From positions 33,354 to 97,353 of the IMG/VR virus record IMGVR_UViG_3300032296_001209: a stretch of DNA of 64,000 bases. The stretch is one strand, 5' to 3'. The position numbers and the translations under genes were made by a program. Below the pieces are notes generated by a model. The model searched no databases. It was not told the DNA's origin and saw only the letters and a list, made by a program, of their open reading frames with translations. The stretch comes from a virus. This document shows, one piece after another, positions 33,301 through 50,066 of this stretch; position 1 is the first letter of the stretch, and each line of letters opens with the position of its first letter.

Positions 33301-35812
33301 CAGGTTCATAAGGAACTACTTCACCTGTAGGTTTTAACACTGTCTGTTCAAATTCAGATTCAGACATTTTACTTAAAACCTCTTTATCTTTAGGAGATGC
33401 ATTCTTTAATATCTCTTCTTTTGTTAATCCAGATCTATTTTTAGCAATCTTTTTAAGTTTTCTTAAATCAATAGATTCAGCAGGATTTGCAAAAAGATTT
33501 GAAACATCTAACTCACTAGCATTATTATTCATCATCCTTACCCACTCATCAAAATAAGGACGTTCTATATCTTGATTAAAATAAGAATTAAATTGTCCAG
33601 TAGTTGGATCCACTATAATTTCTGATGGTGGTGAAGCTAATTGATTAGAAACATTAGGAGTAAAATCTGGTCTTACTCCTCTAGATCTATTTCTAATCAT
33701 ATTTTGTAAAGATCCTTTACCTAGATTTTTAGCTATACCAGCACCTACTAAATTAGTGGGATCTAATATAGCATCAGCTAAGAAAGAACCTACAGGATTC
33801 TGAATATTCATTGCTTCAGATGGCATCTGTACTTTACCAGTTGCTCCATATACAGAAGCTAACTGTGGTGCACTAAACGGAGCCATTACTGTTTCCATCA
33901 TAGCAGTACCTATACCACCAGCACCAGATGCATCATTGGGTTGTTTATACCAATCTTTGCCCCCGGTTGCAGTATTTATTCTTCTAGCCCATTGCTCCAT
34001 AAAATCATCTGATCTTTCATTGTATGGATCTAGACCAATTGCTTTTTCTCCTTTATGTACATATCCTCTTAACTTATCTAACCAAGAACGTTTCTTACGT
34101 ATATCAGCACCCTGCATTCTCTCTACATCAAAAGGAACTTCACCAGCATCTTGATATATATCTAACCAGTTGGTTTGACCACCTTGTTCGTATGTACTAA
34201 ATGGTAAGTATTTGCTAAGAGCAGACATATTTTTTTGACCTTTTTTCTGACCTCTTAAATACTGAACCGCTTTATCCTGATCTGGAAATAGAGAAGTTTT
34301 TCCACGACCTAAAAAAGTATTCTCACCTTTACGTAATTGATTTATTCTATCTGCATCAAGTATCCCTTCTTCTGGGTTATACAAAAATGGAGCAGTAGAC
34401 ATAGAGTTTAAATCCGTTTGTGTTAATTTACCAGTTCGCATTCTATCAACAGCACCTTCGCCGAGCACAAAATTTAACTCGTCATTTGTTAATTTACCGG
34501 TACCCATACTCATAATTCTTGCTTCTTCGGGCATACCTTCACCAAACTGTTGATTTATTTTGTATTCAGGAAGACGATCTCTCATTATCCTTACCGGTTC
34601 TATTTCACCTTTCCAGTAATCTCTGTAGACATATGAATCTTCTCGTGGAGTTTTCAAGTTGCTTACATAAAAATCTGCACGTTGTGGATTATCTAATGCC
34701 CATCTACCAGTAACATCATCAGGCGTTGCAACATTATTAAAATTTGCATGTTCGGTTCTGTATACGTTTTTATAAGTAGGCAATGTTAGTTTACCTGCAA
34801 TTCTAGAAGTTTCTGCTACATCATCGGCGTATCTTGAAACTGCTTGCGCCGCATTTTTAACCAAAGGTTTTGCTATTTTTCCTAATCCTTTTGTTAATGG
34901 AACAACATCAAAAGCGTTTAATCCTGCATTCAATAAATCGCTTCCTGCTTCAGCAAAATCACCCTGTGCGGCATTAACAGCAGCTGATCCCGTATTACCT
35001 ACCAAATCGATAGCAGAAAATGGATATGCAGCTGGGTTAACCATGTCTAATACATAGTCTAACGGATCAGCAGAACCTTTACGTTGTTGTGCTTGTGCTA
35101 CTAATGAACTAGCGTCTCTTGCTTTTTCATAAGCAGATTTAGCTTCTCCTTGACTAACACTACCTACACGTTTAGCATACTCTGCAGCTTCTGCAGCTTT
35201 TCTATTAGCAGCAGTAACGTTTGTATTCTGATTAACTACTCTAGTATTATCAGTATAGCCAGCATTACCAGCAGGACTAGTTCTCATATAGGGCTTACCT
35301 ACATTAGGTGTCCAACCAGCCCAACCACCTGTTTGATATTCATCTAACCATCCTGTCTCACCACCATCTTCTCTACGTTTATGATTATAGTCTATGCGCT
35401 TACCAGATGTTTTCTCTCTTTTAAACTTAGCTTTTTCTGATGATGACATTTCTGATGTAGTCTTAGGAGTTGTTTCATTTACCCGTTTGCTTGGTCTGCA
35501 TGCAGGATATGGTCTACCGTCTTTATCTTTACCTGATCTACCACATGCTTTACCTGTCTTAACATCCACCCATTTTTCATCAAACCATTGTGCTAAACCA
35601 CCTTTACCCATCTGGGGTATCTCAGTTACATAGTTACCGGGGAATGTATAATCCTGACCGGGCATCATCATTTGCTGATTACCTAAATCATCTATACCTA
35701 ATACAGGATAGTTAACCCCCTTCATTGTTATATCAGAAGAGGGTATAATTGTAACCTCACCGGGATATGCCCACTGACCTAAAGGAGATATGATAGGTTT
35801 TTTTCTAGCCAT
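30380..35812 (-). CDS. Giant virion protein with wall-hydrolase-like modules
   Basis: 1810 residues starting MARKKPIISPLGQWAYPGEV, a start I recognise from crAss-like proteins. Residues about 75-145 (KWVDVKTGKACGRSGKDKDG onward) match a short module known to me as DUF5872. A stretch from VYRTEHANF to EEARIM vaguely recalls ADP-ribosyltransferases. In the last third, GNCLETTRNAY followed by IPVGAVIGWG and SHHSTMVTGY resembles an NlpC/P60 or CHAP cysteine peptidase. Further on, ALAISAQESEGGG and TIGMTQLNP resemble a lytic transglycosylase. Linkers contain WLDEYQTGG-type repeats and the C-terminus ends in one. The likely role is local digestion of host peptidoglycan during entry; module calls are by eye. 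Confidence 0.6.
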   Translation of the reverse strand: MARKKPIISPLGQWAYPGEVTIIPSSDITMKGVNYPVLGIDDLGNQQMMMPGQDYTFPGNYVTEIPQMGKGGLAQWFDEKWVDVKTGKACGRSGKDKDGRPYPACRPSKRVNETTPKTTSEMSSSEKAKFKREKTSGKRIDYNHKRREDGGETGWLDEYQTGGWAGWTPNVGKPYMRTSPAGNAGYTDNTRVVNQNTNVTAANRKAAEAAEYAKRVGSVSQGEAKSAYEKARDASSLVAQAQQRKGSADPLDYVLDMVNPAAYPFSAIDLVGNTGSAAVNAAQGDFAEAGSDLLNAGLNAFDVVPLTKGLGKIAKPLVKNAAQAVSRYADDVAETSRIAGKLTLPTYKNVYRTEHANFNNVATPDDVTGRWALDNPQRADFYVSNLKTPREDSYVYRDYWKGEIEPVRIMRDRLPEYKINQQFGEGMPEEARIMSMGTGKLTNDELNFVLGEGAVDRMRTGKLTQTDLNSMSTAPFLYNPEEGILDADRINQLRKGENTFLGRGKTSLFPDQDKAVQYLRGQKKGQKNMSALSKYLPFSTYEQGGQTNWLDIYQDAGEVPFDVERMQGADIRKKRSWLDKLRGYVHKGEKAIGLDPYNERSDDFMEQWARRINTATGGKDWYKQPNDASGAGGIGTAMMETVMAPFSAPQLASVYGATGKVQMPSEAMNIQNPVGSFLADAILDPTNLVGAGIAKNLGKGSLQNMIRNRSRGVRPDFTPNVSNQLASPPSEIIVDPTTGQFNSYFNQDIERPYFDEWVRMMNNNASELDVSNLFANPAESIDLRKLKKIAKNRSGLTKEEILKNASPKDKEVLSKMSESEFEQTVLKPTGEVVPYEPAINLGLGFNTNTRNLNLSNTIPMDNSEYVDIFNSRLDRLNEIISRNNKSGLDYSVKGLSPSGALTFNTPAQIEKLAPDTAVLNQLRDRGFMDEAGNIDPRFQDYADRWGIMGNRNIPQGESTWMLDINPGQWRGEVEDIANAEYFKAIPGLNMRNTTASVFSDALPRRGTGTYNSINEYLKELDLGRVKPGFNSQSQSSSGLWEDAIKKGKAFGYFNNPGTVYGSMRTVAPLVAGAAAASQLPEQKNGGWLNNYQDGGENLPELNSKIDIANFYKNPLSEKYGIYQDPEDDTYKYYLKSGDESSILQSGPDLSNINSRRLAEINSQKGSLSNAQLANIKNVSPVILPEQKQRILRDKVYYDQEDLMEQAMSESAIPSVKTPSYSEILESDPEFKRVMTEKPKPVAPIKPKPVAADTPLVPIGNAPRAITRPAVRKVVAKNDIVNLADLTITKADLAYLNKVEEYCPKGNCLETTRNAYDMLPGRIQGIPTSSDIWSNDLKIHSKKGTPTANDIKQYPYFAGDSGSGTVDSWDIHGVIVANGGKNLFNINNPTPIDYKQIPVGAVIGWGPANKKDSSYSGRSKGYNKQFGMQPSHHSTMVTGYSETGEPIVYDGFLKKYMTLTEAKANIGSSLSYELENISAPKSILNNTQDNLRSQGILLNYIPPTNVNPNKILAAANQPWAQIPEGSAKRAPRFNKQMMTEFNSALMNNKGELMRNLNISSEKYDELAKVALAISAQESEGGGALGIIDGSTIGMTQLNPDNIFKDDKLKKAASKPYILNDGGNNILKPELIKTPSGSAVATMIYLSKLDKDSERYYNEGKVPKDRSFTKNSNIIKDALRSNTSKYNADGFFVEEANKRIDLSPFEGGMLSSPDPVAAQKLLNKTAGAADKYKVSVKNGSLVVTMKTKGNADLSVAERIGYAWQSPNTLKSGDAQGDSVYTRRIKNYYDLLNNTTPTYRKEGGQTGWLNKYK

Positions 35813-38800: not shown

Positions 38801-40532
38801 TATCTCTACCTAAGAAAGAATCATGATCTAAGAAGTTGTACGGATAGTTTACGTACAATCCAGTAATATTACTATCTATAATATCATAAGACCTCATGTT
38901 ATTAATGAGACCCTTTGCAATAATAGATCTATTAGCTTCTCTTGATCCTCTTAAGATCTCATAACCAATAATACTTCTGATAAGATTACCAGCAGAATCT
39001 TTTGGAAACTCAATATTAGAGAACTCTACACCTAAAGAAACAATAGTATCATTAGTTGTATTGTAGTTAGGAATAATAATGTCATCCGGAAACTTGTGGT
39101 GTCTAATTTCTAAACCACATAAGTTATCCCATACATCTGGTTTATTATCAGGATACTTTTCAGTAGACTGCCAGTAGGCCATCTCACCTTTAAATACAAT
39201 TGTACCACCATCATCAGTAGTACCAGTTGCTGGTACTTTAGTAGCAGTGTTGTTTACTTGCCAGTTTTGTTCTGGACCAAAGTTTACGATGTGATCCAGA
39301 CCAGAGTTATTACTAAGCTCTCCGGGTTTTGATGCACGTCCTGGTATATGGTAGCTAGATGACTTAGCACCTGTGTCATAAATCCAGCGTATAAAAAAGC
39401 TATATACTTCATCTCTTAAAAATGTTGGTTTGTTTCCGCCTTTATAATAATAGTCAGCAGGATATTCTACTCCTACCCAACTAGTAGCAATCTTATTAGC
39501 TAACGGTTGGTAGTTAAAGTCTTCATAGGTAGTTGGAGCAATACGGATAAGGTATTCATTTACATTATACATACCCTGTGATTTCTCATAAGCCGGGGTA
39601 CGTAATGGTATCTGCTCCAAAGGAACTGTGGGTAATGTAGGATCTACAGCATCTAATGATACAGTACTAGTCTGAGTAGAATAGTAACCAATTCTTCTAG
39701 CTACAGCTTGCTGATTAACAAAGCCTATAACTACTAACTCAAACTCATCATACTCTGTATCTAAACCATTAATGAAAATATCTAATGACCCGTTTACATT
39801 ATCATGTGTCCACAAAGCTTGTACGTTAGAGATAGCTAAGTAATCAGATACTCTAACTCCATTAACAGAATAAGCAATTGTAGCTTGGTATGATCCATTA
39901 AGTAATGTACCTAAGCCATTACCTTTCTTTACTTGAATACAAGGGGTTTTAGCATATGCTGCTAATCTTAGTTTATCACAATCAATAGTACCAGTAGATA
40001 CTTCATCTTTACATGGACCAGGAAGAATATCTGTAGTAAGATAAGGAACACCCTGCCAGTTACCTACTGGATAAGGCCATGAGTCCTGCTTACCAATATT
40101 CATAGTGCGGGATACATTGTATCCATCATCCCAATATAACTGCCATGAACAATCAGAGTTATATTTAGATACACCAATTACCGGATACTCTTTAAAGAAA
40201 TTAAAGCACTTGTTAAAAGGATCATTGTAGATAGTATTATACTCACAAGTCTCCTCATGAAATAATCCAATCTCAGAAGCAAAGTTATTACTAGAATAAA
40301 TAGCCCAGTAACCATCACCAATATACACTGTACCAATAATAGTATATGGGGCTCTAGTACATAATATGTTACTAGGCTCATTACCCAATACTCCAACGTC
40401 TCCAGAAGGAGAGTTGTTTACAGCATTTCTAGCATGCGTCCAATAACCTTCACCTACGTATGTATCATTTACATCTTTCAGTAAACCTTTATTGTATATC
40501 TCGGTGTGTATTAAACTGGTCTTGCCATCCAT
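35817..40532 (-). CDS. Muzzle-like tail protein, crAss-like
   Basis: About 1571 residues, starting at the ATG at 40532 in a TAATG junction with the upstream gene (a TTG nine bases earlier is rejected). The beginning, MDGKTSLIHTEIYNKGLLKD followed by GYWTHARNAVNNSPSGDVG, is what I expect of the large conserved tail protein called muzzle in the phiCrAss001 structure, which forms the distal tail barrel. Most of it is beta-rich, aromatic-rich sequence. A hydrophobic Gly/Ala stretch at about residues 680-760 could line or plug the channel. It follows two ring-type genes and precedes the cargo genes, as in crAss-like phages. Confidence 0.7.
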   Translation of the reverse strand: MDGKTSLIHTEIYNKGLLKDVNDTYVGEGYWTHARNAVNNSPSGDVGVLGNEPSNILCTRAPYTIIGTVYIGDGYWAIYSSNNFASEIGLFHEETCEYNTIYNDPFNKCFNFFKEYPVIGVSKYNSDCSWQLYWDDGYNVSRTMNIGKQDSWPYPVGNWQGVPYLTTDILPGPCKDEVSTGTIDCDKLRLAAYAKTPCIQVKKGNGLGTLLNGSYQATIAYSVNGVRVSDYLAISNVQALWTHDNVNGSLDIFINGLDTEYDEFELVVIGFVNQQAVARRIGYYSTQTSTVSLDAVDPTLPTVPLEQIPLRTPAYEKSQGMYNVNEYLIRIAPTTYEDFNYQPLANKIATSWVGVEYPADYYYKGGNKPTFLRDEVYSFFIRWIYDTGAKSSSYHIPGRASKPGELSNNSGLDHIVNFGPEQNWQVNNTATKVPATGTTDDGGTIVFKGEMAYWQSTEKYPDNKPDVWDNLCGLEIRHHKFPDDIIIPNYNTTNDTIVSLGVEFSNIEFPKDSAGNLIRSIIGYEILRGSREANRSIIAKGLINNMRSYDIIDSNITGLYVNYPYNFLDHDSFLGRDKKRLPKIRQTRGGTMDDDKYHTGNSAAVDVQLFDGVKRDIFSFHSPETTFRNPFLSATELKVYGQVWGDVEGRFRPVDNHPKDKFITDTSAIIANLAGIALGVAAARNAVPITDFLISAGITAGIPAIAGTATTAQPFTGAVLGLIGAVGQYVILFGYYWLASTQSLIEGIEAAGGKRQFAYQYVSHGFYRNFASSPVGNRRREIIKSLYIDPVIQDYDTSYRINNLFRASTVSVSLNSPIADPTVVDNTLFTIGQMARGENGRPAPSSYGLNDVTAPAEPQTVTARDIWRKPESFTQSSVTSAHYAALKVKNDNQYGQLDNIRQVPVGCINLWTSGYLPNARSTSAVIFGGDMYVNRYTEKSTFFYFSQWMQDLPDNTEWDYRLYNMLPYPRYWMDTTKYNAADLLGGIFGGDQALPNDFHHLDRRKVSGAFMVRFAYMYLFNSGIRDFYVESEINLAYRDYGDDPGKRHYDFTTYTDYEEMFRTPYIKDTNYQKYDYALSISKHFSNFASWGNLQSRIYDPSNTSCYTTYDTRVIYSLQQQFELSKDNWRQFLANNYYDFDSKVVSMRSVGKTGAIIMLSGESPVLFQGVETLDLNGGTKLSIGDGQLFNAQPLQNLVNADPEFEYGSCQNRFSVINTPAGLFYMSQNQGKVFSYGQGLQDISKSGMKWWFSQYSPYALLLDFPDIESNILDNTIIGVGCQTTYDNINEIVFFCKRDFKLKPQYKGKVIYLFSNKFGHVDFPGYQFDLGDPTYFEDASWTVSYDPKAKAFISFHDWHPNLVMSSKTYYMTVKDNGIWKHNLVCDSYCNYYGVNYPFEIEYVQNQGQTVTTTRSVEYILECYRYSPNCLDYHHLLDENFDRAIVYNTEQISGDLRLNLSPKNNPYLINNYPLVNVNNIDILFSKEEQKYRFNQFWDITNDRGEFTGTFAPMWVTEANGYIRNINATYVNYNKGATQRKKFRHYLNKVILKKLVSGSSKFLLKLSNNKLLASFR

Positions 40533-41395
40533 TATCTCCAACTATTATGATTGTAACTCTTGAACATATCGTAATATTTATTGTATTGAGCCTTACGGTT
40601 CATCTCCCACATCTTATACATCTCTGCAAAGTTTGGAGTGTTAACTAATGACAAAGCATTATTACGGGCTGCTCTTAATCTCTGTTCAACTAAATTAAGT
40701 TTTTGTACTACATCCTCACCATTCATGTATAAGTTCTCAAGCAATCTCTGCTTAACAGCATACTCATAGTATTCATTTACATAAGGATTATCTAACACCA
40801 TCAAGTTACCCTCTTCATCTTCCATAGTACCCTGGTAGTTAACATATACTTTACCATGCTCTAGGTTAAGATAGATGAAGTTATTTTTAAGTTGGCCTTT
40901 GTATGGAGATTTCCAGGTAAGGTTAGGACAATCACAAGAGATAGTTTTAGAGTTATTATCTAAAGAGATAACTGTGCTAATCTCATATGTCCGGGTCTCA
41001 AACTGTGTAGTCTGGATTACTTGTAATAAATCACCACACTGTGTTAAGCATGTGTTTGTAGGAGTACAAGGATCTAATGGTCCGGGAACAAATGGTACTA
41101 CTACGTCCTCTCTATGTGTACCAGAAATAGCAGGCTGTGTAACTGTATATTCACCACACAACATAGCGTAGTTTAATACATAGAAATCATCCGGAAGTCT
41201 TACTTTGCTATTAACAATATCAAGTACAACCTCTTTAGTCATATTAATCCGGAGACCTAAATCATAATTAACTCTCTGTACAACCTTGATAAGTTGCTGT
41301 GGCTCTATCATATTCTCTAGAGCATACATAGAGAAATCAACACTTACATCTTCAAGTAATTGATTGAATGTACGGTATTTTAATTCTGTAAGCAT
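40532..41395 (-). CDS. Ring/connector protein, crAss-like (R1-type)
   Basis: 287 residues starting MLTELKYRTFNQLLEDVSVD. The N-terminal half is helical, with KVVQRVNYDLGLRINMTKE and VRLPDDFYVLNYAML, a layout typical of head-tail connector and ring proteins related to P22 gp4 and T7 tail-tube proteins. A cysteine-bearing beta insertion follows (CTPTNTCLTQCG), then a C-terminal helical region (VEQRLRAARNNALSLVN). It is coupled by TAATG overlaps both to the upstream ring-type gene and to the muzzle-like gene, implying assembly in the same complex. The exact ring position is inferred from gene order. Confidence 0.6.
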   Translation of the reverse strand: MLTELKYRTFNQLLEDVSVDFSMYALENMIEPQQLIKVVQRVNYDLGLRINMTKEVVLDIVNSKVRLPDDFYVLNYAMLCGEYTVTQPAISGTHREDVVVPFVPGPLDPCTPTNTCLTQCGDLLQVIQTTQFETRTYEISTVISLDNNSKTISCDCPNLTWKSPYKGQLKNNFIYLNLEHGKVYVNYQGTMEDEEGNLMVLDNPYVNEYYEYAVKQRLLENLYMNGEDVVQKLNLVEQRLRAARNNALSLVNTPNFAEMYKMWEMNRKAQYNKYYDMFKSYNHNSWR

Positions 41396-42051
41396 TATCT
41401 GTTAGGATTAATATTATCATCACTAAGATCTGTAGGAATAGATAACCTAGATCCCAAATCTTTAATTACCATAGCTTCAATTTCTGCTAATAAGAACTCA
41501 GGTACATTGATACCCAAATCTTGTTTTTTGGTACAAGCATTACCATCAGTTGTATCCTCTGTAAAGATTGCCTCTACTTTGATAGCATCCCAGTCAAGAT
41601 TAGGCATATACAAGTATCCGTTTAAGTACCAGAAGTATTTAAACTTGTTGTACCTAAATCCGGTTGTCTTAGTCATAGATGTAAACTGACCAGGAGTAGT
41701 TGCATATAACTCCTCAGATGCATCAATAGAGCTCACTGTACGGATCAAAGGACCCCAGTAACCCTCTAGCATGACTGGAAGCTTTTCTTTTGTTCTACGG
41801 ATAGTACAACCAGATTTAATTCCTGCACAACATGCTTCTATCTTATCTACTTCAATTAACTCTAAACAATCTAGAGTTCTCCAAATAGAATTAAACTTCA
41901 TTAATTTGTTCTGAGAGTCTTGTCTTCTCATCAGAAGCTGTGAGTATTTTACAACTACACTGTAAACATACCTATCAGTTAGGAAAGCATCTTGCCTTAC
42001 TCCTTTTACCTGATTCTTTACCCGTGATATTACGGTGCCAATAGTTACCAT
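41395..42051 (-). CDS. Ring/connector protein, crAss-like
   Basis: 218 residues starting MVTIGTVISRVKNQVKGVRQ, then DAFLTDRYVYSVVVKYSQLLMRRQDSQ. This helical start and the beta-rich middle (TGFRYNKFKYFWYLNGYLYM) fit the small ring proteins that stack below the portal in crAss-like tails. The stop overlaps the next start as TAATG. Three cysteines are clustered (ACCAGIKSGC). No enzyme motif is present. The identification rests on overall character and on position directly before the R1-type and muzzle-like genes. Confidence 0.6.
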   Translation of the reverse strand: MVTIGTVISRVKNQVKGVRQDAFLTDRYVYSVVVKYSQLLMRRQDSQNKLMKFNSIWRTLDCLELIEVDKIEACCAGIKSGCTIRRTKEKLPVMLEGYWGPLIRTVSSIDASEELYATTPGQFTSMTKTTGFRYNKFKYFWYLNGYLYMPNLDWDAIKVEAIFTEDTTDGNACTKKQDLGINVPEFLLAEIEAMVIKDLGSRLSIPTDLSDDNINPNR

Positions 42052-44055: not shown

Positions 44056-44262
44056 TTATTTTCTGCCTAGTTTAATATACTTAAACCAAACACGCTCGTG
44101 TAAATAATAAAGGATCATCTTAGTAATGACTTCTACACTACCTATCTTTAATCCTAGAGTAAAGTTTCCGGTAATAAGCCAGCTAAGAATTATAGTATCT
44201 ATAGTACCTACAATCCTCCAGGTTACAGTCTTAAGTATGTGTCTTAACTTGTCATTACTCAT
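44056..44262 (-). CDS. DUF2061-like small membrane protein
   Basis: 68 residues. It shows TWRIVGTIDTIILSWLITGN, a glycine-containing hydrophobic middle (LKIGSVEVITKMILYYLHER) and a C-terminal VWFKYIKLGRK, the pattern of the DUF2061 family of predicted inner-membrane proteins. The start overlaps the nucleotidyltransferase stop as ATGA. I faintly recall DUF2061 genes occurring near APS kinases, which would fit here, but that association should be checked. It may anchor the cassette enzymes at the membrane. It is the last gene before the terminator. Confidence 0.7.
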   Translation of the reverse strand: MSNDKLRHILKTVTWRIVGTIDTIILSWLITGNFTLGLKIGSVEVITKMILYYLHERVWFKYIKLGRK

Positions 44263-44606
44263 AACCCCATTTCCTTCCTGATTTTAGTAGCTGAGATAGC
44301 CTGGATTTCTGCAGGAGCTTGAATCTGCTCTACTTTATATCCAACATCTCTACCATAGTATACACCTTCAATATCAGGTAATACCATAACTTTAAGCATA
44401 CCGGCTTGAACATGATGTAACAGTTTCTCACCAATATTCCTAACTACCTCATCAGGCTCAAAAGGATTCTTCTCATCTTTAGGTACATCGCGTACACATA
44501 CTAGTACGGGAATACCCTCATTGATCTTTTGCTCAAACAAGAAAATATGACCATCATGTAATGGCTGATATCTTCCAATGAACATTGCATATTTTTTAGC
44601 TTCCAT
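44259..44606 (-). CDS. Small HxGH nucleotidyltransferase
   Basis: 115 residues. GRYQPLHDGH (11-20) is the HxGH nucleotide-binding motif of the cytidylyltransferase/NMNAT/ATP-sulfurylase superfamily, and ISATKIR (104-110) is the matching C-terminal motif. These enzymes transfer a nucleotidyl group from an NTP and release pyrophosphate. The length is near the minimum for the fold. The motif looks closer to NadM or cytidylyltransferases than to classical ATP sulfurylase. Its 11-bp overlap with the APS kinase gene makes involvement in sulfate or sugar-nucleotide activation plausible. The true substrate cannot be read from sequence. Confidence 0.8.
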   Translation of the reverse strand: MEAKKYAMFIGRYQPLHDGHIFLFEQKINEGIPVLVCVRDVPKDEKNPFEPDEVVRNIGEKLLHHVQAGMLKVMVLPDIEGVYYGRDVGYKVEQIQAPAEIQAISATKIRKEMGL

Positions 44607-45057
44607 ATGTTTTATATATATTAATTACTTTGTTAACTGAATCTTTCTCACTTACCCCAGATGTATTAATCTCTAAATCTACTTTTGTAGGTTCTTCAAA
44701 ATCAATAACATGGAAGTTTTCTCTACCCCGTTTTTCTTCTACATCATACTTTAGATATACCCAAAGTACTCTATCACCATACTGCTCTAAGTATCTCCGG
44801 CATTCTTCATAAGGATAAACAAAAGCCATAAGAACAACATCATTTAATGATTGCTCATAGTGGGCAATATCAGAGGCAAGATTAAGATTCTTAATCCTAC
44901 CTCCTCTTGAATAATCTTTATTAGAGAATACATTACGGAACTTATCACCATCCATATAGTGAACCTTGTTCTTTGTATTTTTCTTAAGCCATCCAAAGAA
45001 CTCTTTACATAAGGTAGTCTTACCAGATGTAGGTTGGCCAAAAAATACAACTATCAT
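44596..45057 (-). CDS. Adenylylsulfate (APS) kinase-like P-loop enzyme
   Basis: 153 residues. The Walker A motif GQPTSGKTT (7-15) is followed by YMDGDKFRN (35-42) and SNKDYSRGGRIKNLNLASDI, the order seen in APS kinases (CysC), where DGDxxR contacts APS. A later YVYPYEECRR-like segment also fits. The enzyme would phosphorylate APS to PAPS, the donor used by sulfotransferases. At 153 residues it is shorter than typical CysC (about 180-200), and the loop residues differ, so a related small kinase is possible. It overlaps the sulfotransferase stop as ATGA, supporting joint function. Confidence 0.75.
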   Translation of the reverse strand: MIVVFFGQPTSGKTTLCKEFFGWLKKNTKNKVHYMDGDKFRNVFSNKDYSRGGRIKNLNLASDIAHYEQSLNDVVLMAFVYPYEECRRYLEQYGDRVLWVYLKYDVEEKRGRENFHVIDFEEPTKVDLEINTSGVSEKDSVNKVINIYKTYGS

Positions 45058-45872
45058 TTTGTATATCTAAAGTAATCGTTATACCACTTAAAGTTTGTCC
45101 AGATCCAATCTGTTACATCTTTACCTAAGATAGCTTTTGCTTGAGAAGGTACTGGCTCAACTTTAGTCCGGATAGTATGATCACCATAAATACCATATAC
45201 AGCATCATCCTCTTGAGTAATTTGTTGAATATCATCAAAGTCATGCTTGTATGCTGGTACACCTAAGTATTCATAAATCCTATCCATAGTCATCTGAGGA
45301 TATAAACACAAATCCTCAAACTTAACGAAGTGGATATGCTTATCATTACCTTGTCTGATAATCTCATTAAGACGCTCAATTGCCATACCTACAGGTTGAC
45401 TAGCTAACCATTGGTCTACACGCTTAGGTGTAGTAGTTCCGGTCATCTGTGCATGATTTACAATAGGATCATTTAAATGCTGGCTCTTACGGAAGTTCTT
45501 CTCCATTGAGCATATGATATCCCGCATATCTCTAACCATACAGATAATCTTTGGTTCCGGATATGCAAAGTTTAGCATATCATAATGTACTGCCCAACCT
45601 CTAGACTTATCTACTACATACTTCTTGTCAGTAATGGCTGTAAAGAAACCTGTCATTCCGGCATTACAAAATGCTTGGAAACCTTTCTTCATAGTCTCAC
45701 TGTCCTGAGCTTTAAACTCTGGAGACTCTGTGTAGTTAGCTCTAGCTGCATAGATTAACTCTAATACACCACTTGTAGGTGTAGTATAAAAATCCGGATT
45801 CTGGCCTAGAATATTCTGGAGTAATGTACTACCAGATCTAGGTAAACTTGAATTAAAAAATATCTTTTCCAT
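45054..45872 (-). CDS. PAPS-dependent sulfotransferase
   Basis: 272 residues. The 5'-phosphosulfate loop LPRSGSTLL (10-18) starts the protein after a short beta strand, and the 3'-phosphate-binding region CMVRDMRDIICSMEKNF (111-127) has R114 and S122 in the expected places. The family moves sulfate from PAPS to hydroxyl or amino groups of sugars, proteins or lipids. It is coupled by TAATG to the upstream glycosyltransferase and by ATGA to the APS kinase. A Cys-less middle region and C-terminal FKWYNDYFRYTK are unremarkable. The acceptor is unknown: a glycan made by the neighbouring GT9-type enzyme is the simplest guess. Confidence 0.88.
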   Translation of the reverse strand: MEKIFFNSSLPRSGSTLLQNILGQNPDFYTTPTSGVLELIYAARANYTESPEFKAQDSETMKKGFQAFCNAGMTGFFTAITDKKYVVDKSRGWAVHYDMLNFAYPEPKIICMVRDMRDIICSMEKNFRKSQHLNDPIVNHAQMTGTTTPKRVDQWLASQPVGMAIERLNEIIRQGNDKHIHFVKFEDLCLYPQMTMDRIYEYLGVPAYKHDFDDIQQITQEDDAVYGIYGDHTIRTKVEPVPSQAKAILGKDVTDWIWTNFKWYNDYFRYTK

Positions 45873-46750
45873 TAGTTGATTTCCTCCAATGCTTTAATAA
45901 TATCTTCAGTATTAAAGATATCTCTTTCACTATGATATGGAAACTCTAACGGGTCACCAATAATATTAAACTTACCTAAGTAAGAATGTCTCAACTCCGG
46001 CTTCTTGGTAAAGTTATTAGCTCTGATGTTCTTATGAATATCATAACCAAATACACCCTCACTATTACCAATCCAGCAAACTACAGATGGTAAGTGTAAT
46101 GCAGCACATGCATGGTTAGCAAAAGAATCAATTAACAATCTCTTACTACTCATCATTAATAATACACACATAGATCTGAAGTTATCACTTACCTGTATTG
46201 TATTATTTAATACCGGCTGATCATCTCTACGGATATGTACTACTTGATAATCTTTAGAGAAATGATCTACTACTTCCTGAGCTACATGCTGAGGCAGATC
46301 TCTTGCCCAACTGTACTTTAATTCCTGATTAGGAGCACCCCCATTAGTTTGGATAACAAATAATGGTTTGTCACTTTGATACTTCTGTGAGAAGAAAGTC
46401 ATTTCCCGGCTAGTTAGGTACAGTTTAGGAAACTCTCCATTGTACTGATAACCAAACATTTTAGACCAGGTTTTAAGAAGATGCTCACTCATTTGTACAT
46501 GAGCTGCTTCTACGTAAGGATTGTGTGCATGAATTTTTACATCTTTACCCTCAATGTATTCTTCATAGAAATACTGTTGCTGACCAAAAGCATAAGCTCG
46601 GTCAACCCAGGGATTATCTAAGAATACTTCTGGATAACCTGATACAACAATTAACTTGTCATCAGGATGATGGTGCTTAATGCACTCACACACAGCGGTG
46701 GCCATGATACACTTACCAAGACCACCGTCAATTTGAAAAATAATGTTCAT
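45872..46750 (-). CDS. GT9-like (heptosyltransferase-type) glycosyltransferase
   Basis: About 292 residues from ATG 46750; a TTG at 46774 would add eight residues but lies inside a hairpin. The N-terminus MNIIFQIDGGLGKCIMATAV has the GG-LGK loop found where GT9 enzymes have G-x-LGD. The C-terminal half has LLIDSFANHACAALHLPSVV followed by CWIGNS, matching the GT9 nucleotide-sugar-binding region. GT9 enzymes add heptose or related sugars. The gene is the first of the accessory cassette, immediately after the long fibre, so the fibre or the host envelope could be the acceptor. The exact sugar is not predictable. Confidence 0.75.
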   Translation of the reverse strand: MNIIFQIDGGLGKCIMATAVCECIKHHHPDDKLIVVSGYPEVFLDNPWVDRAYAFGQQQYFYEEYIEGKDVKIHAHNPYVEAAHVQMSEHLLKTWSKMFGYQYNGEFPKLYLTSREMTFFSQKYQSDKPLFVIQTNGGAPNQELKYSWARDLPQHVAQEVVDHFSKDYQVVHIRRDDQPVLNNTIQVSDNFRSMCVLLMMSSKRLLIDSFANHACAALHLPSVVCWIGNSEGVFGYDIHKNIRANNFTKKPELRHSYLGKFNIIGDPLEFPYHSERDIFNTEDIIKALEEIN

Positions 46751-46754
46751 AATA

Positions 46755-46785
46755 TATCTATATATGCAAAGCAAATATATAGATA
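46755..46785. promoter_or_regulatory. 11-bp-arm inverted repeat between fibre and cassette
   Basis: Arms TATCTATATAT (46755-46765) and ATATATAGATA (46775-46785) are perfect complements around the 9-base loop GCAAAGCAA. It fills the 43-bp gap between the fibre stop (46794) and the glycosyltransferase start (46750). There is no long T-tract, so an operator, an mRNA-processing hairpin or a weak attenuator fits better than a classical terminator. Confidence 0.6.
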
Positions 46786-46793
46786 ATTATTTA

Positions 46794-49700
46794 TTACCTT
46801 ATATAAGTAATTGAAAATTTAGCTACTACTTTAATATTTACAGTTCCACCACCAGCAAATGTTGGTGCAGTAAAAGTGGTTTTTATATTTTGAGAAGGAC
46901 CCACTGAATAAGTCATTTGTGCACTACTCATACTTGGATCTTCCATAGGAATATCACTTACCGGAGAACCACTTAAAATATTTAATAAACCACCACTACT
47001 AGATTTTCTAACACCAATTTGTTGACTTTGAGTTTTAGTATCTGTAATACTAACTCCTGTTACAGTACCTGTAGTACCATTAATACTAGCTACATAATCA
47101 ACTCTAATATGCCATGCAGAAGTAGGAGTACTTGCACCAGGTATAATTAAATTAGTAACTCCAGTTCCATCTAATGATAAATCAAATGTTCCACCAGATG
47201 GAATATTAATAGCATCTGCATATGGAGTTAAATATGTAATATACTTACCTACTGTAAATTGATTTTGATGATTAGCTATTCCACAAGCTCCTAAAACTAC
47301 TGTACTTGTTGCTGTTGCAGAACTACTATGTCCTAAAATAAATGAACCATAACCACTTACTGTATTTCTTGCACCTACAGCACTACCAAAAGTACTATTT
47401 ACATTATTACCTGCACCTATAGCACTTGTTCCATCAGCAGTTCCAACATAATTACCACTACCTAATATAGAACCCCAATAAGCATACGCATTTATACAAT
47501 TACAAAGTCCTCCAGCAATAATTGAACCATTTCCTTCTGCTTTATTACATAAACCTCCACCTACTGTTTGATATGAAAATAAACTATAATTACCAGTACC
47601 TGGATTCCAAACACAGTTACCAGCACCACCAGAAATGGTGCTGCCATATGAAGCAGCATAATTTCCACATCCTCCTCCGACCATTGAGAAAACTCCCGTG
47701 GCGCAATTCAATGCACCACCCATTACATTTGACCAAGAACCCGTTGCCTTGTTTGCACAACCTCCACTTACATTTGAGAATATACCAAACGCACAATTGT
47801 AGCCCCCACCAACTACACTTGATTGGCTACAACCGACCAAGTTTTTAACACCTCCATAAATACCACTATTAATAGTTGTTGACCCATATGCACTTCCAGT
47901 TAAGCAATTGGCTTGACCACCTACAATTACGGAATTTATTTTTCCGAATAATGTACAATCATTACAAATGATATTATTTGAACCGCCAAATATTTCGGAA
48001 CACCTTAACGCATTGATATTGCATCTACCGCCAAATATTTGTGTAAAATAGTCAAGTGTGCAATTACCGCACCCTCCAATTAAGTGCATACTAGTAATAC
48101 CCGAACCACTTGGAGTGCAGTTGGGGCCTATTATAATTGTATTAGTTGTTGGGGTACTTGCAACACATCCCCCACCAATTACAATGCTATCTCCGCAACT
48201 TGTGCCTCCACCGATTACAAGACCACACGCAGCATTACCGCCTCCTATTGCAACCGCACCATCTCCCGATGCCGTACTTCCATAAAAGCCACCAATTGCA
48301 AATGACCCAATACCCGAAGCAACGGAATTTCTTCCTATTGCAAGAGAACAAGCCCCCGAAGCAACACTTCCGCAAATACCCGATATACTATTGTAACCAC
48401 TTGCCGTATTTCCCCTTCCTCCAAGAATGAAAGAATTGCAACAAGAAGATAAATTTCCAATACCTCCAAGTACCATTGAACCATAACCCGTTGCTCGGTT
48501 TCCGCAACCGCCTCCTACCATTGAGAATACTGCCGTGGCGCAATTGCCTAAACCGCCACCAACAAAAGAAAAACAGTTGGTTGCTTGGTTTTGTTGTCCT
48601 CCTACAACTACCGACACACAAGCACTTGATGTATGATTTCTACCACCACCAATAAAAGCGTATGAACCCGATGCCGTATTTTGACGACCACCACCTACAA
48701 ATGTGCCGTTATTGTTTGTACAATTAAATACGCCACTTCCTATAGCCGAGTAACTACCACTTGCGGTGTTATTTGTTCCTGCACCAATGAAAGCGGATGT
48801 TTGTAAAGTGCGATTAGAAAATCCCGCGCCTATAAAACCATTTGTAACACAAGCGATATTGTTGTTTCCTCCACCAATAAATGAACAAGCCCCAACCGCG
48901 CAATTTGAAAACCCGCCAACTACTGCACTAAATCCACCAATGGCTTGGTTACATTGACCGCCTCCAACAAATGACCAAGATGAAGATGCATGGTTACTTA
49001 AACCTCCTGCTACTGCACTAAATGGTGCACCAGCACTATTACTTCTACCTCCAGCTACAGTAGTATGACTTGCTGTAGCGCTATTACTTTCTCCACCACC
49101 AACAAATGACCAGGATGAAGTTGAATTATTTGCTATACCACCTACAACTGCTGCACCATATCCTAGTGAATTATTTCCTATGCCACCTACAACAGCCGCA
49201 CCATATCCTCCACTTGCAGTGTTTCCACATCCTCCACCTACAAAAGAACAACAAACTGATGCTGTATTTCTTAATCCACCACCTACAAATGAACCATTTG
49301 CATTGGCTATATTTCCACAACCACCTACTACTGCTGAACAAACACCACTAGCAGTGTTAAAATCACCTCCTACAATAACGGATGCTTGAGCTGTAGCATC
49401 ATTTCTACAACCACCACCAATAAAACTTCTAGTACCTGTAGTTGTATTTCTACAACCCGTAAATACTCCTGAACTCCTACCATTTGCAGTGTTATAATAT
49501 CCCGAAACTGTTGCCACCGCACCCGCACAATTCCCGTAACCTCCACTCACAGTTCCATAATCAGCACTTACAGAATTTCTTACACCTCCTAAAATAATAC
49601 TATTACCACCGCTAATTGTATTATTTACACCTCCAAAAATATTTTTACCATTAGATGTAAATTGACCTAATAGATTAGTTGTATTACCAGCACCACCCAT

Positions 49701-50066
49701 AATAGTACTATAATTTGATAATGCACAGTTATTTAAACCACTAACAAAATTAAATACACCAAGTGCAATATTATTTGCACCTCCTACAATAACACTGTTA
49801 TTACCACTTGCTACTTGAATAGCTGATGTTCTTGAAAGTTGTAAGTCAACAGCATATGTACCACGAGCATTACCTCCTACTGCTGTTGCATCAGGGCATG
49901 CAGCAATAATAGCTCCGGTGCCTTTTGGCTTAAGAGCAAAGTTGATATTAGGATCTGCACCAATTACTTCAATGAAAGCAGTTGCTTGTATAGCACTACA
50001 TGTGCCATCAATAAAGCTTGTTAGTCCACCTCCACCTAATGAGAAAAATTTACCGTATCTAGCCAT
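46794..50066 (-). CDS. Long YadA-like repeat fibre/adhesin
   Basis: 1090 residues. After an N-terminal region (LGGGGLTSFIDGTCSAIQ) and a short block shared with paralogues (GTYAVDLQLSRTSAIQVASG), residues about 88-930 are tandem 15-residue repeats of the type S-x-V-x-G-G-x-x-N-x-A-S-G-x-x, the pattern of YadA-head left-handed beta rolls, which trimerise. About 45 cysteines, nearly all in repeats, are unusual. The C-terminal ~150 residues (WHIRVDY...TTFTAPTFAGGGTVNIKV) match the C-terminal beta domain of the other fibre genes. The likely role is receptor binding on the virion surface. Codon style changes inside the gene. Confidence 0.8.
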   Translation of the reverse strand: MARYGKFFSLGGGGLTSFIDGTCSAIQATAFIEVIGADPNINFALKPKGTGAIIAACPDATAVGGNARGTYAVDLQLSRTSAIQVASGNNSVIVGGANNIALGVFNFVSGLNNCALSNYSTIMGGAGNTTNLLGQFTSNGKNIFGGVNNTISGGNSIILGGVRNSVSADYGTVSGGYGNCAGAVATVSGYYNTANGRSSGVFTGCRNTTTGTRSFIGGGCRNDATAQASVIVGGDFNTASGVCSAVVGGCGNIANANGSFVGGGLRNTASVCCSFVGGGCGNTASGGYGAAVVGGIGNNSLGYGAAVVGGIANNSTSSWSFVGGGESNSATASHTTVAGGRSNSAGAPFSAVAGGLSNHASSSWSFVGGGQCNQAIGGFSAVVGGFSNCAVGACSFIGGGNNNIACVTNGFIGAGFSNRTLQTSAFIGAGTNNTASGSYSAIGSGVFNCTNNNGTFVGGGRQNTASGSYAFIGGGRNHTSSACVSVVVGGQQNQATNCFSFVGGGLGNCATAVFSMVGGGCGNRATGYGSMVLGGIGNLSSCCNSFILGGRGNTASGYNSISGICGSVASGACSLAIGRNSVASGIGSFAIGGFYGSTASGDGAVAIGGGNAACGLVIGGGTSCGDSIVIGGGCVASTPTTNTIIIGPNCTPSGSGITSMHLIGGCGNCTLDYFTQIFGGRCNINALRCSEIFGGSNNIICNDCTLFGKINSVIVGGQANCLTGSAYGSTTINSGIYGGVKNLVGCSQSSVVGGGYNCAFGIFSNVSGGCANKATGSWSNVMGGALNCATGVFSMVGGGCGNYAASYGSTISGGAGNCVWNPGTGNYSLFSYQTVGGGLCNKAEGNGSIIAGGLCNCINAYAYWGSILGSGNYVGTADGTSAIGAGNNVNSTFGSAVGARNTVSGYGSFILGHSSSATATSTVVLGACGIANHQNQFTVGKYITYLTPYADAINIPSGGTFDLSLDGTGVTNLIIPGASTPTSAWHIRVDYVASINGTTGTVTGVSITDTKTQSQQIGVRKSSSGGLLNILSGSPVSDIPMEDPSMSSAQMTYSVGPSQNIKTTFTAPTFAGGGTVNIKVVAKFSITYIR
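47270..49805 (-). repeat. 45-bp tandem repeats coding the beta-roll of the long fibre
   Basis: The coding sequence is a long, degenerate tandem array with a 45-bp (15-codon) period. Consecutive protein units align, for example SFVGGGCGNTASGGY, GAAVVGGIGNNSLGY, WSFVGGGESNSATAS. DNA identity between most units is modest, but some distant units are nearly identical, such as those at about 47675-47715 and 48505-48545, indicating internal duplication. Confidence 0.85.

Follow-up and report, generated by a model that had tools for sequence, protein, structure and literature searches.

The window analysed here is a stretch of 64,000 nucleotides of viral DNA (positions 33,354 to 97,353 of the IMG/VR record IMGVR_UViG_3300032296_001209, which holds 97,353 bases). 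Judged by its sequence, the phage appears to be crAss-like, a label given on the strength of crAss ring proteins 1 and 2 (40532-42051). On the minus strand, five tightly packed genes run from 46774 down to 44056. The run is headed by a 300-aa gene (45872..46774) without a Pfam match, which by eye resembles a GT9-like glycosyltransferase. It is followed by a sulfotransferase that is expected to use PAPS (45054..45872; PF13469, E 4.2e-22, and PF00685, E 4e-15) and by an APS-kinase-family kinase of 153 aa with a shortened lid (44596..45057; PF01583 APS_kinase, E 4.5e-10, above the cut-off). The fourth gene encodes a minimal HxGH nucleotidyltransferase (NTase) of 115 aa (44259..44606; PF01467, E 3.8e-5, above the cut-off), proposed here to be an APS-forming enzyme with ATP sulfurylase activity. 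A small DUF2061 membrane protein closes the run (44056..44262; PF09834, E 1.2e-23). The reading frames of the kinase and the NTase overlap by 11 nt; overlaps of 4 nt link the sulfotransferase to the kinase and the NTase to DUF2061. The original prediction of a 115-residue HxGH nucleotidyltransferase overlapping an APS kinase was borne out, with the gene on the minus strand.

The plus-strand frame at the place of the NTase is crowded with stops. In one scan, a relative of the NTase was encoded by 360 of 374 pattern-matched viral stretches, with motifs and gene order kept, and for this reason the frame is regarded as a real gene and not a chance one. Sat, CysD and CysN were not detected across the whole 97-kb virus record, the single CysN match being the kinase itself. 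Upstream of the glycosyltransferase-like and sulfotransferase genes, the minus strand of the window encodes a protein of 1090 aa (46794-50066) with many short GG-rich N/S/G repeats and without a Pfam match. It is probably a virion fibre or adhesin, and the sugar and sulfate genes could have it as their substrate.

The window kinase scores 40.2 bits against PF01583 (cut-off 21.1) and 35.9 bits against the apsK equivalog TIGR00455, below its cut-off of 138.7. Its AlphaFold2 model has a pLDDT of 95.5, and the top 50 Foldseek matches of this model are all APS kinases or chains bearing an APS kinase; the PDB sequence matches are likewise APS kinases only. The signature GxxxxGK, DGD, R, R, N is conserved. 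The DGD motif (residues 36-38; 44944..44952, minus strand) is followed by R41, R54 and N57; in the kinase alignment G12, K13, D38, R41 and R54 are invariant, while D36, G37 and N57 are kept in at least 90% of the sequences. The lid is shorter than that of canonical CysC, which makes substrate specificity less certain for the phage kinase than for the CysC fusions described below.

Three motifs characterize the NTase family in an alignment of 77 diverse members. GRYQPLHDGH (residues 11-20; 44547..44576, minus strand) is the predicted nucleotide- and pyrophosphate-binding HxGH loop, in which G11, R12, Q14, H17 and H20 are invariant. The family-specific GRDVGY (residues 85-90; 44337..44354, minus strand) has invariant G85, R86, G89 and Y90. 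ISATKIR (residues 104-110; 44277..44297, minus strand) would be the counterpart of ISxTxxR or SGTxxR; S105 and R110 are invariant here, and I104, A106, T107 and I109 are kept in at least 90% of the members. R39 and P48 complete the set of invariant positions. Nearly all members have SATxxR, and SGTxxR occurs in locus L074 and in the haloarchaeal fusions.

The AlphaFold2 model of the NTase (pLDDT 93.5, three core strands assigned) has a nucleotidyltransferase fold. In the fold comparison suggested by the original prediction, phosphopantetheine and NMN adenylyltransferases (PPAT and NMNAT) lead the Foldseek matches in the PDB (1ej2, TM 0.73 on the query), and ATP sulfurylase is absent from the top 50. 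The resemblance of GRYQPLHDGH to NadM noticed earlier also held in sequence searches. A profile search of PDB sequences retrieved NadM-type NMNAT chains at E about 1e-11, in matches confined to the N-terminal half, and hhalign gave 99.2% with NMNAT versus 84% with Sat. NMNATs are the nearest solved relatives, but the NTase does not fall within their family. It scores 22.4 bits against the NadM equivalog TIGR01527, whose cut-off is 181.2. The GRxVGY-type motif is present in 77 of 77 NTase family members and in none of 35 viral NMNATs. The distance from HxGH to ISxTxxR has a median of 83 residues (range 79-85) in the NTase family versus 122 (115-124) in the viral NMNATs, so that about 40 residues are missing. 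A loose NxxxW pattern, its position not considered, was found in 31 of the 35 NMNAT controls and in 20 of the 77 family members. With a C-terminal half that differs in this way and scores well short of the NMNAT equivalog cut-offs, the NTase constitutes a family of its own, one which by descent probably branched, we infer, from within the NMNAT/PPAT part of the superfamily. In a survey of mainly open-access journal papers on phage APS kinases with sulfotransferases, DUF2061, crAss-like sulfotransferases, new ATP sulfurylases and SAR11 sulfate assimilation, none appeared to describe this family.

The activation of sulfate is usually ascribed to two families of enzymes, Sat and CysDN. With Sat (PF01747) the NTase shares the HxGH nucleotidyltransferase superfamily and would share the reaction; the order of motifs HxxH, GRD and S[GA]TxxR may correspond as well. 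Read along the sequence, GRxQPxHxGH, GRxVGY and ISATKIR of the NTase would parallel QTRNxPHxGH, GRDHAG and ISGTKIR of Sat, and GR[DG]VGY, judged by its place in the order of motifs, may correspond to GRDHAG. The HXXH motif of Sat is matched by the invariant H17 and H20. Sat is considerably larger, with roughly 340-570 aa versus 115 aa, and has a PUA-like N-terminal domain that the NTase lacks; its GRDHAG is replaced by GRxVGY, and its QXRN by an invariant GRxQ. The QXRN loop for sulfate and the alpha-phosphate and SGTxxR are ATP sulfurylase motifs (PMC3779200). Membership of the NTase in the Sat family was rejected, as the Pfam scan matched PF01467 only, leaving PF01747 (ATP-sulfurylase) unmatched, and QXRN is absent. 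The NTase would instead be an independent minimal APS-forming family. CysDN would share the reaction and the place in the operon beside CysH, but it consists of a PP-loop ATP pyrophosphatase and a GTPase unrelated to the NTase fold. Joining of the two activities in one chain is familiar from Sat, which is also fused to APS kinase in the fungal and Aquifex ATPS-APSK enzymes, and human PAPSS1 (APSK-ATPS) has the APS kinase N-terminal, as do the NTase fusions. A phage form of such a fusion seems to be present in PHROG 10255, where residues 5-127 match the window kinase and the C-terminal residues 134-229 the window NTase. This group is named "kinase" (category "other") without a specific function, and differs from the window, in which the two are separate overlapping genes.

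The viral neighbourhood set included 119 NTase loci with enough flank, or 29 after dereplication. A kinase of the APS kinase family was fused to the NTase or lay within 4 kb in 119 of 119 loci (29/29 dereplicated), a count obtained with a kinase model built partly from the test loci and hence biased towards them. The Pfam tally over two genes on each side of the 29 dereplicated loci, which is the unbiased check, showed APS_kinase in 24 proteins, with three further loci being fusions; it also showed DUF2061 in 17 proteins and sulfotransferases of three Pfam families. Relatives of the window sulfotransferase were present at 58 of the 119 loci, DUF2061 at 47 (18 of the 29), and relatives of the glycosyltransferase-like 300-aa gene near 24. 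A canonical full-length CysC adjoins the NTase in five viral loci (L192, L213, L219, L226 and L233), three of which (L213, L226 and L233) have sulfotransferases as well. In two viral loci (L213:7042-7989 and L219:7051-7998) CysC continues into an additional C-terminal domain, about 110 aa long, with a HAD-hydrolase-like look. Kinase-NTase fusions of Stenotrophomonas and Clavibacter phages (L082, L083 and L084) are annotated as kinase or hypothetical protein, and no relative of the window sulfotransferase was recognised near them.

As a control, viral NadM-type NMNATs were fetched likewise with an alignment as the query. At the 35 control loci no APS kinase, sulfotransferase or DUF2061 was found, and 21 NAMPT genes were counted over 27 loci. 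Neither NAMPT nor NAPRTase was among the 25 commonest neighbour families of the 29 NTase loci. DUF2061 was also considered as a possible marker for sulfate genes in general and rejected, since a scan around 20 high-scoring DUF2061 genes from Pseudomonadota found no cys genes; it therefore counts only as a gene recurring beside the kinase-NTase pair.

The family is also found in cellular organisms. A full canonical CysC is fused to the NTase, in the order kinase-NTase, in Acidobacteria (L090), Nomurabacteria (L089) and haloarchaea (L275 and L276). On haloarchaeal plasmids, the CysC-NTase fusion, which is annotated just as cysC, is preceded by a sulfotransferase one or two genes upstream. On four of these plasmids (L275, L276, L277 and L279) a YqcI/YcgG family gene is found near the sulfotransferase and the fusion. 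The NTase was rejected as a chromosomal trait of Bacteroidota, being present in 1 of 395 genomes, namely one that had been used to define the group; it is thus of no help with the phage host.

In Pelagibacterales chromosomes, the kinase is within 4 kb of the NTase in 53 of 61 loci. Five Pelagibacterales-like genomes possess the operon CbiX-CobA-CysI-CysH-DUF2061-kinase-NTase (L155:3202-8339 and L259-L262; the contig of L261 stops inside CobA), which looks like a complete sulfate assimilation operon, though cultured SAR11 are described as lacking the pathway. Beyond CysH cross-hits and hits at the level of elongation factors, none of the five genomes yielded CysD or CysN, and in four of them Sat was not found either; these are incomplete assemblies of 0.7-1.1 Mb, and the absence is for this reason not proof. 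The fifth genome (G039) has a Sat-like gene, sited in a surface-polysaccharide cluster. Of 20 other CysH-bearing alphaproteobacterial loci, 7 had a neighbouring CysD, and neither the NTase nor DUF2061 was seen at any of the 20. A PF13469 sulfotransferase was present in 10 of the 15 NTase-bearing Pelagibacterales-like genomes tested. Typical Pelagibacter has the kinase-NTase pair while CysH is absent, which counts against the supply of APS by the NTase. Ca. Pelagibacter ubique has been reported to lack cysDN, cysHIJ and sat (Smith et al., PMC5069961), and the strain table of the same paper lists cysC and cysQ for HTCC1062. With cysC kept and both sat and cysDN missing, Ca. Pelagibacter is left with an APS kinase that lacks a supply of APS. 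Other arrangements were seen in this group. In some Pelagibacter (L158:725-3273) the kinase stands apart from the NTase, right after genes that look like EgtB and EgtD of ergothioneine biosynthesis. SAR11-type genomes also have Sat-like genes of about 340-354 aa beside a pyruvate-kinase-like gene in surface-polysaccharide clusters (L281:355-2857 and L282:4581-6925), and these may serve something besides sulfate assimilation.

The affinity to archaeal NMNATs, which are the nearest PDB matches by sequence and fold and have GRxQPxHxGH in common with the NTase (NadM/NadR type: TIGR01527, MTH150, MJ0541), could indicate an NMN or NaMN adenylyltransferase. The kinase would then be of the ribosylnicotinamide type and the pair would serve NAD salvage, and NadR too couples an NMNAT to a P-loop kinase. 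Such a function, the NAD-type product weighed in the original prediction, is judged improbable on motifs, spacing, family cut-offs and neighbours: the score lies far below the TIGR01527 cut-off, GRxVGY separates the two groups without exception, the NTase is shorter between HxGH and ISxTxxR, and the gene neighbours are wholly different, NAMPT being frequent at the control loci and, with NAPRTase, missing from the commonest NTase neighbours. NAD salvage would also leave the CysH-CysI and sulfotransferase neighbours unexplained, and the partner kinase matches APS kinases.

The length of the NTase is close to that of glycerol-3-phosphate cytidylyltransferase (chains of 129-132 aa), and a glycosyltransferase-like gene is sometimes nearby. 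By analogy with the CDP-amidate chemistry of the Campylobacter capsule, the NTase might be a cytidylyl- or adenylyltransferase that activates a small anion other than sulfate, or a phosphorylated metabolite, with sugar phosphates, glycerol phosphate and phosphoramidate-like compounds as candidates, and the nucleotide product of which would be phosphorylated by a kinase whose specificity may have drifted with its shortened lid. This is considered unlikely, as the fusion to full-length canonical CysC, CysH/CysI and the sulfotransferases all point to PAPS, and the Pfam neighbour tally shows no other recurring enzyme from a pathway to nucleotide sugars or phosphoramidates. There is little probability, too, that the NTase is a non-catalytic or regulatory partner holding the APS kinase, which would receive APS from a host ATP sulfurylase. 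Its very small size and the three core strands assigned in the predicted model would suit such a role, and the phage hosts may have Sat or CysDN, which could also feed the phage kinase. However, both HxGH histidines and the Ser and Arg of ISxTxxR are invariant in the 77 diverse sequences, a conservation that would argue for catalysis, and the NTase is part of operons in genomes where the searches detected no ATP sulfurylase.

The supply of APS by the NTase to the overlapping kinase, as originally proposed, is the reading best supported by genome context. It relies on the adjacency or fusion to APS kinase, with canonical CysC among the partners, seen across viruses, bacteria and archaea; on the linkage to sulfotransferases in viruses and haloarchaea; on the CysI-CysH operon in genomes without detected CysDN and mostly without Sat; and on the fact that the NAD-synthesis neighbours of viral NMNATs were not seen around the NTase. 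The NTase is accordingly likely to be a third, minimal ATP sulfurylase beside Sat and CysDN, making APS for its coupled kinase. The first rank of NMNAT and PPAT in sequence and fold searches and the lack of conservation of Sat QXRN count against this assignment. The reaction itself, the arginines that would bind sulfate and the product that would be sulfated are predicted from context. In the proposed mechanism, ATP would be set against the HxGH loop and the start of the ISATKIR helix, and sulfate would attack its alpha-phosphate by HxGH/ISxTxxR chemistry, giving APS and pyrophosphate. APS would be passed to the overlapping APS kinase and converted into PAPS. The adjacent sulfotransferase would then use PAPS to modify a molecule of the phage or of its host, perhaps a glycan. 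The ATP sulfurylase reaction at equilibrium strongly favours ATP and sulfate, and the kinase step would draw the unfavourable formation of APS forward. Strict coupling to APS kinase is therefore to be expected, which fits the overlaps and the strictness of the pairing as well as the many fusions.

More broadly, there is a fairly good chance that PAPS synthesis in many aquatic phages, SAR11 and haloarchaea is served by an ATP sulfurylase family of some 115 residues that is distant from Sat and has no relation to CysDN, and that this family and APS kinase make up a very small PAPS synthase activating sulfate in organisms thought to be unable to do so. The novelty would lie in the enzyme family, the formation of APS being a known reaction. 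If this holds, many phages would have a complete sulfation kit of ATP sulfurylase, APS kinase and sulfotransferase, and not a stray cysC, and the NTase and kinase would provide a very small and easily expressed source of PAPS. Genome-based predictions of PAPS production and sulfate assimilation would change as well, given that searches for sat and cysDN would miss the family. For Ca. Pelagibacter, the small partner enzyme would solve the puzzle of an APS kinase lacking a source of APS.
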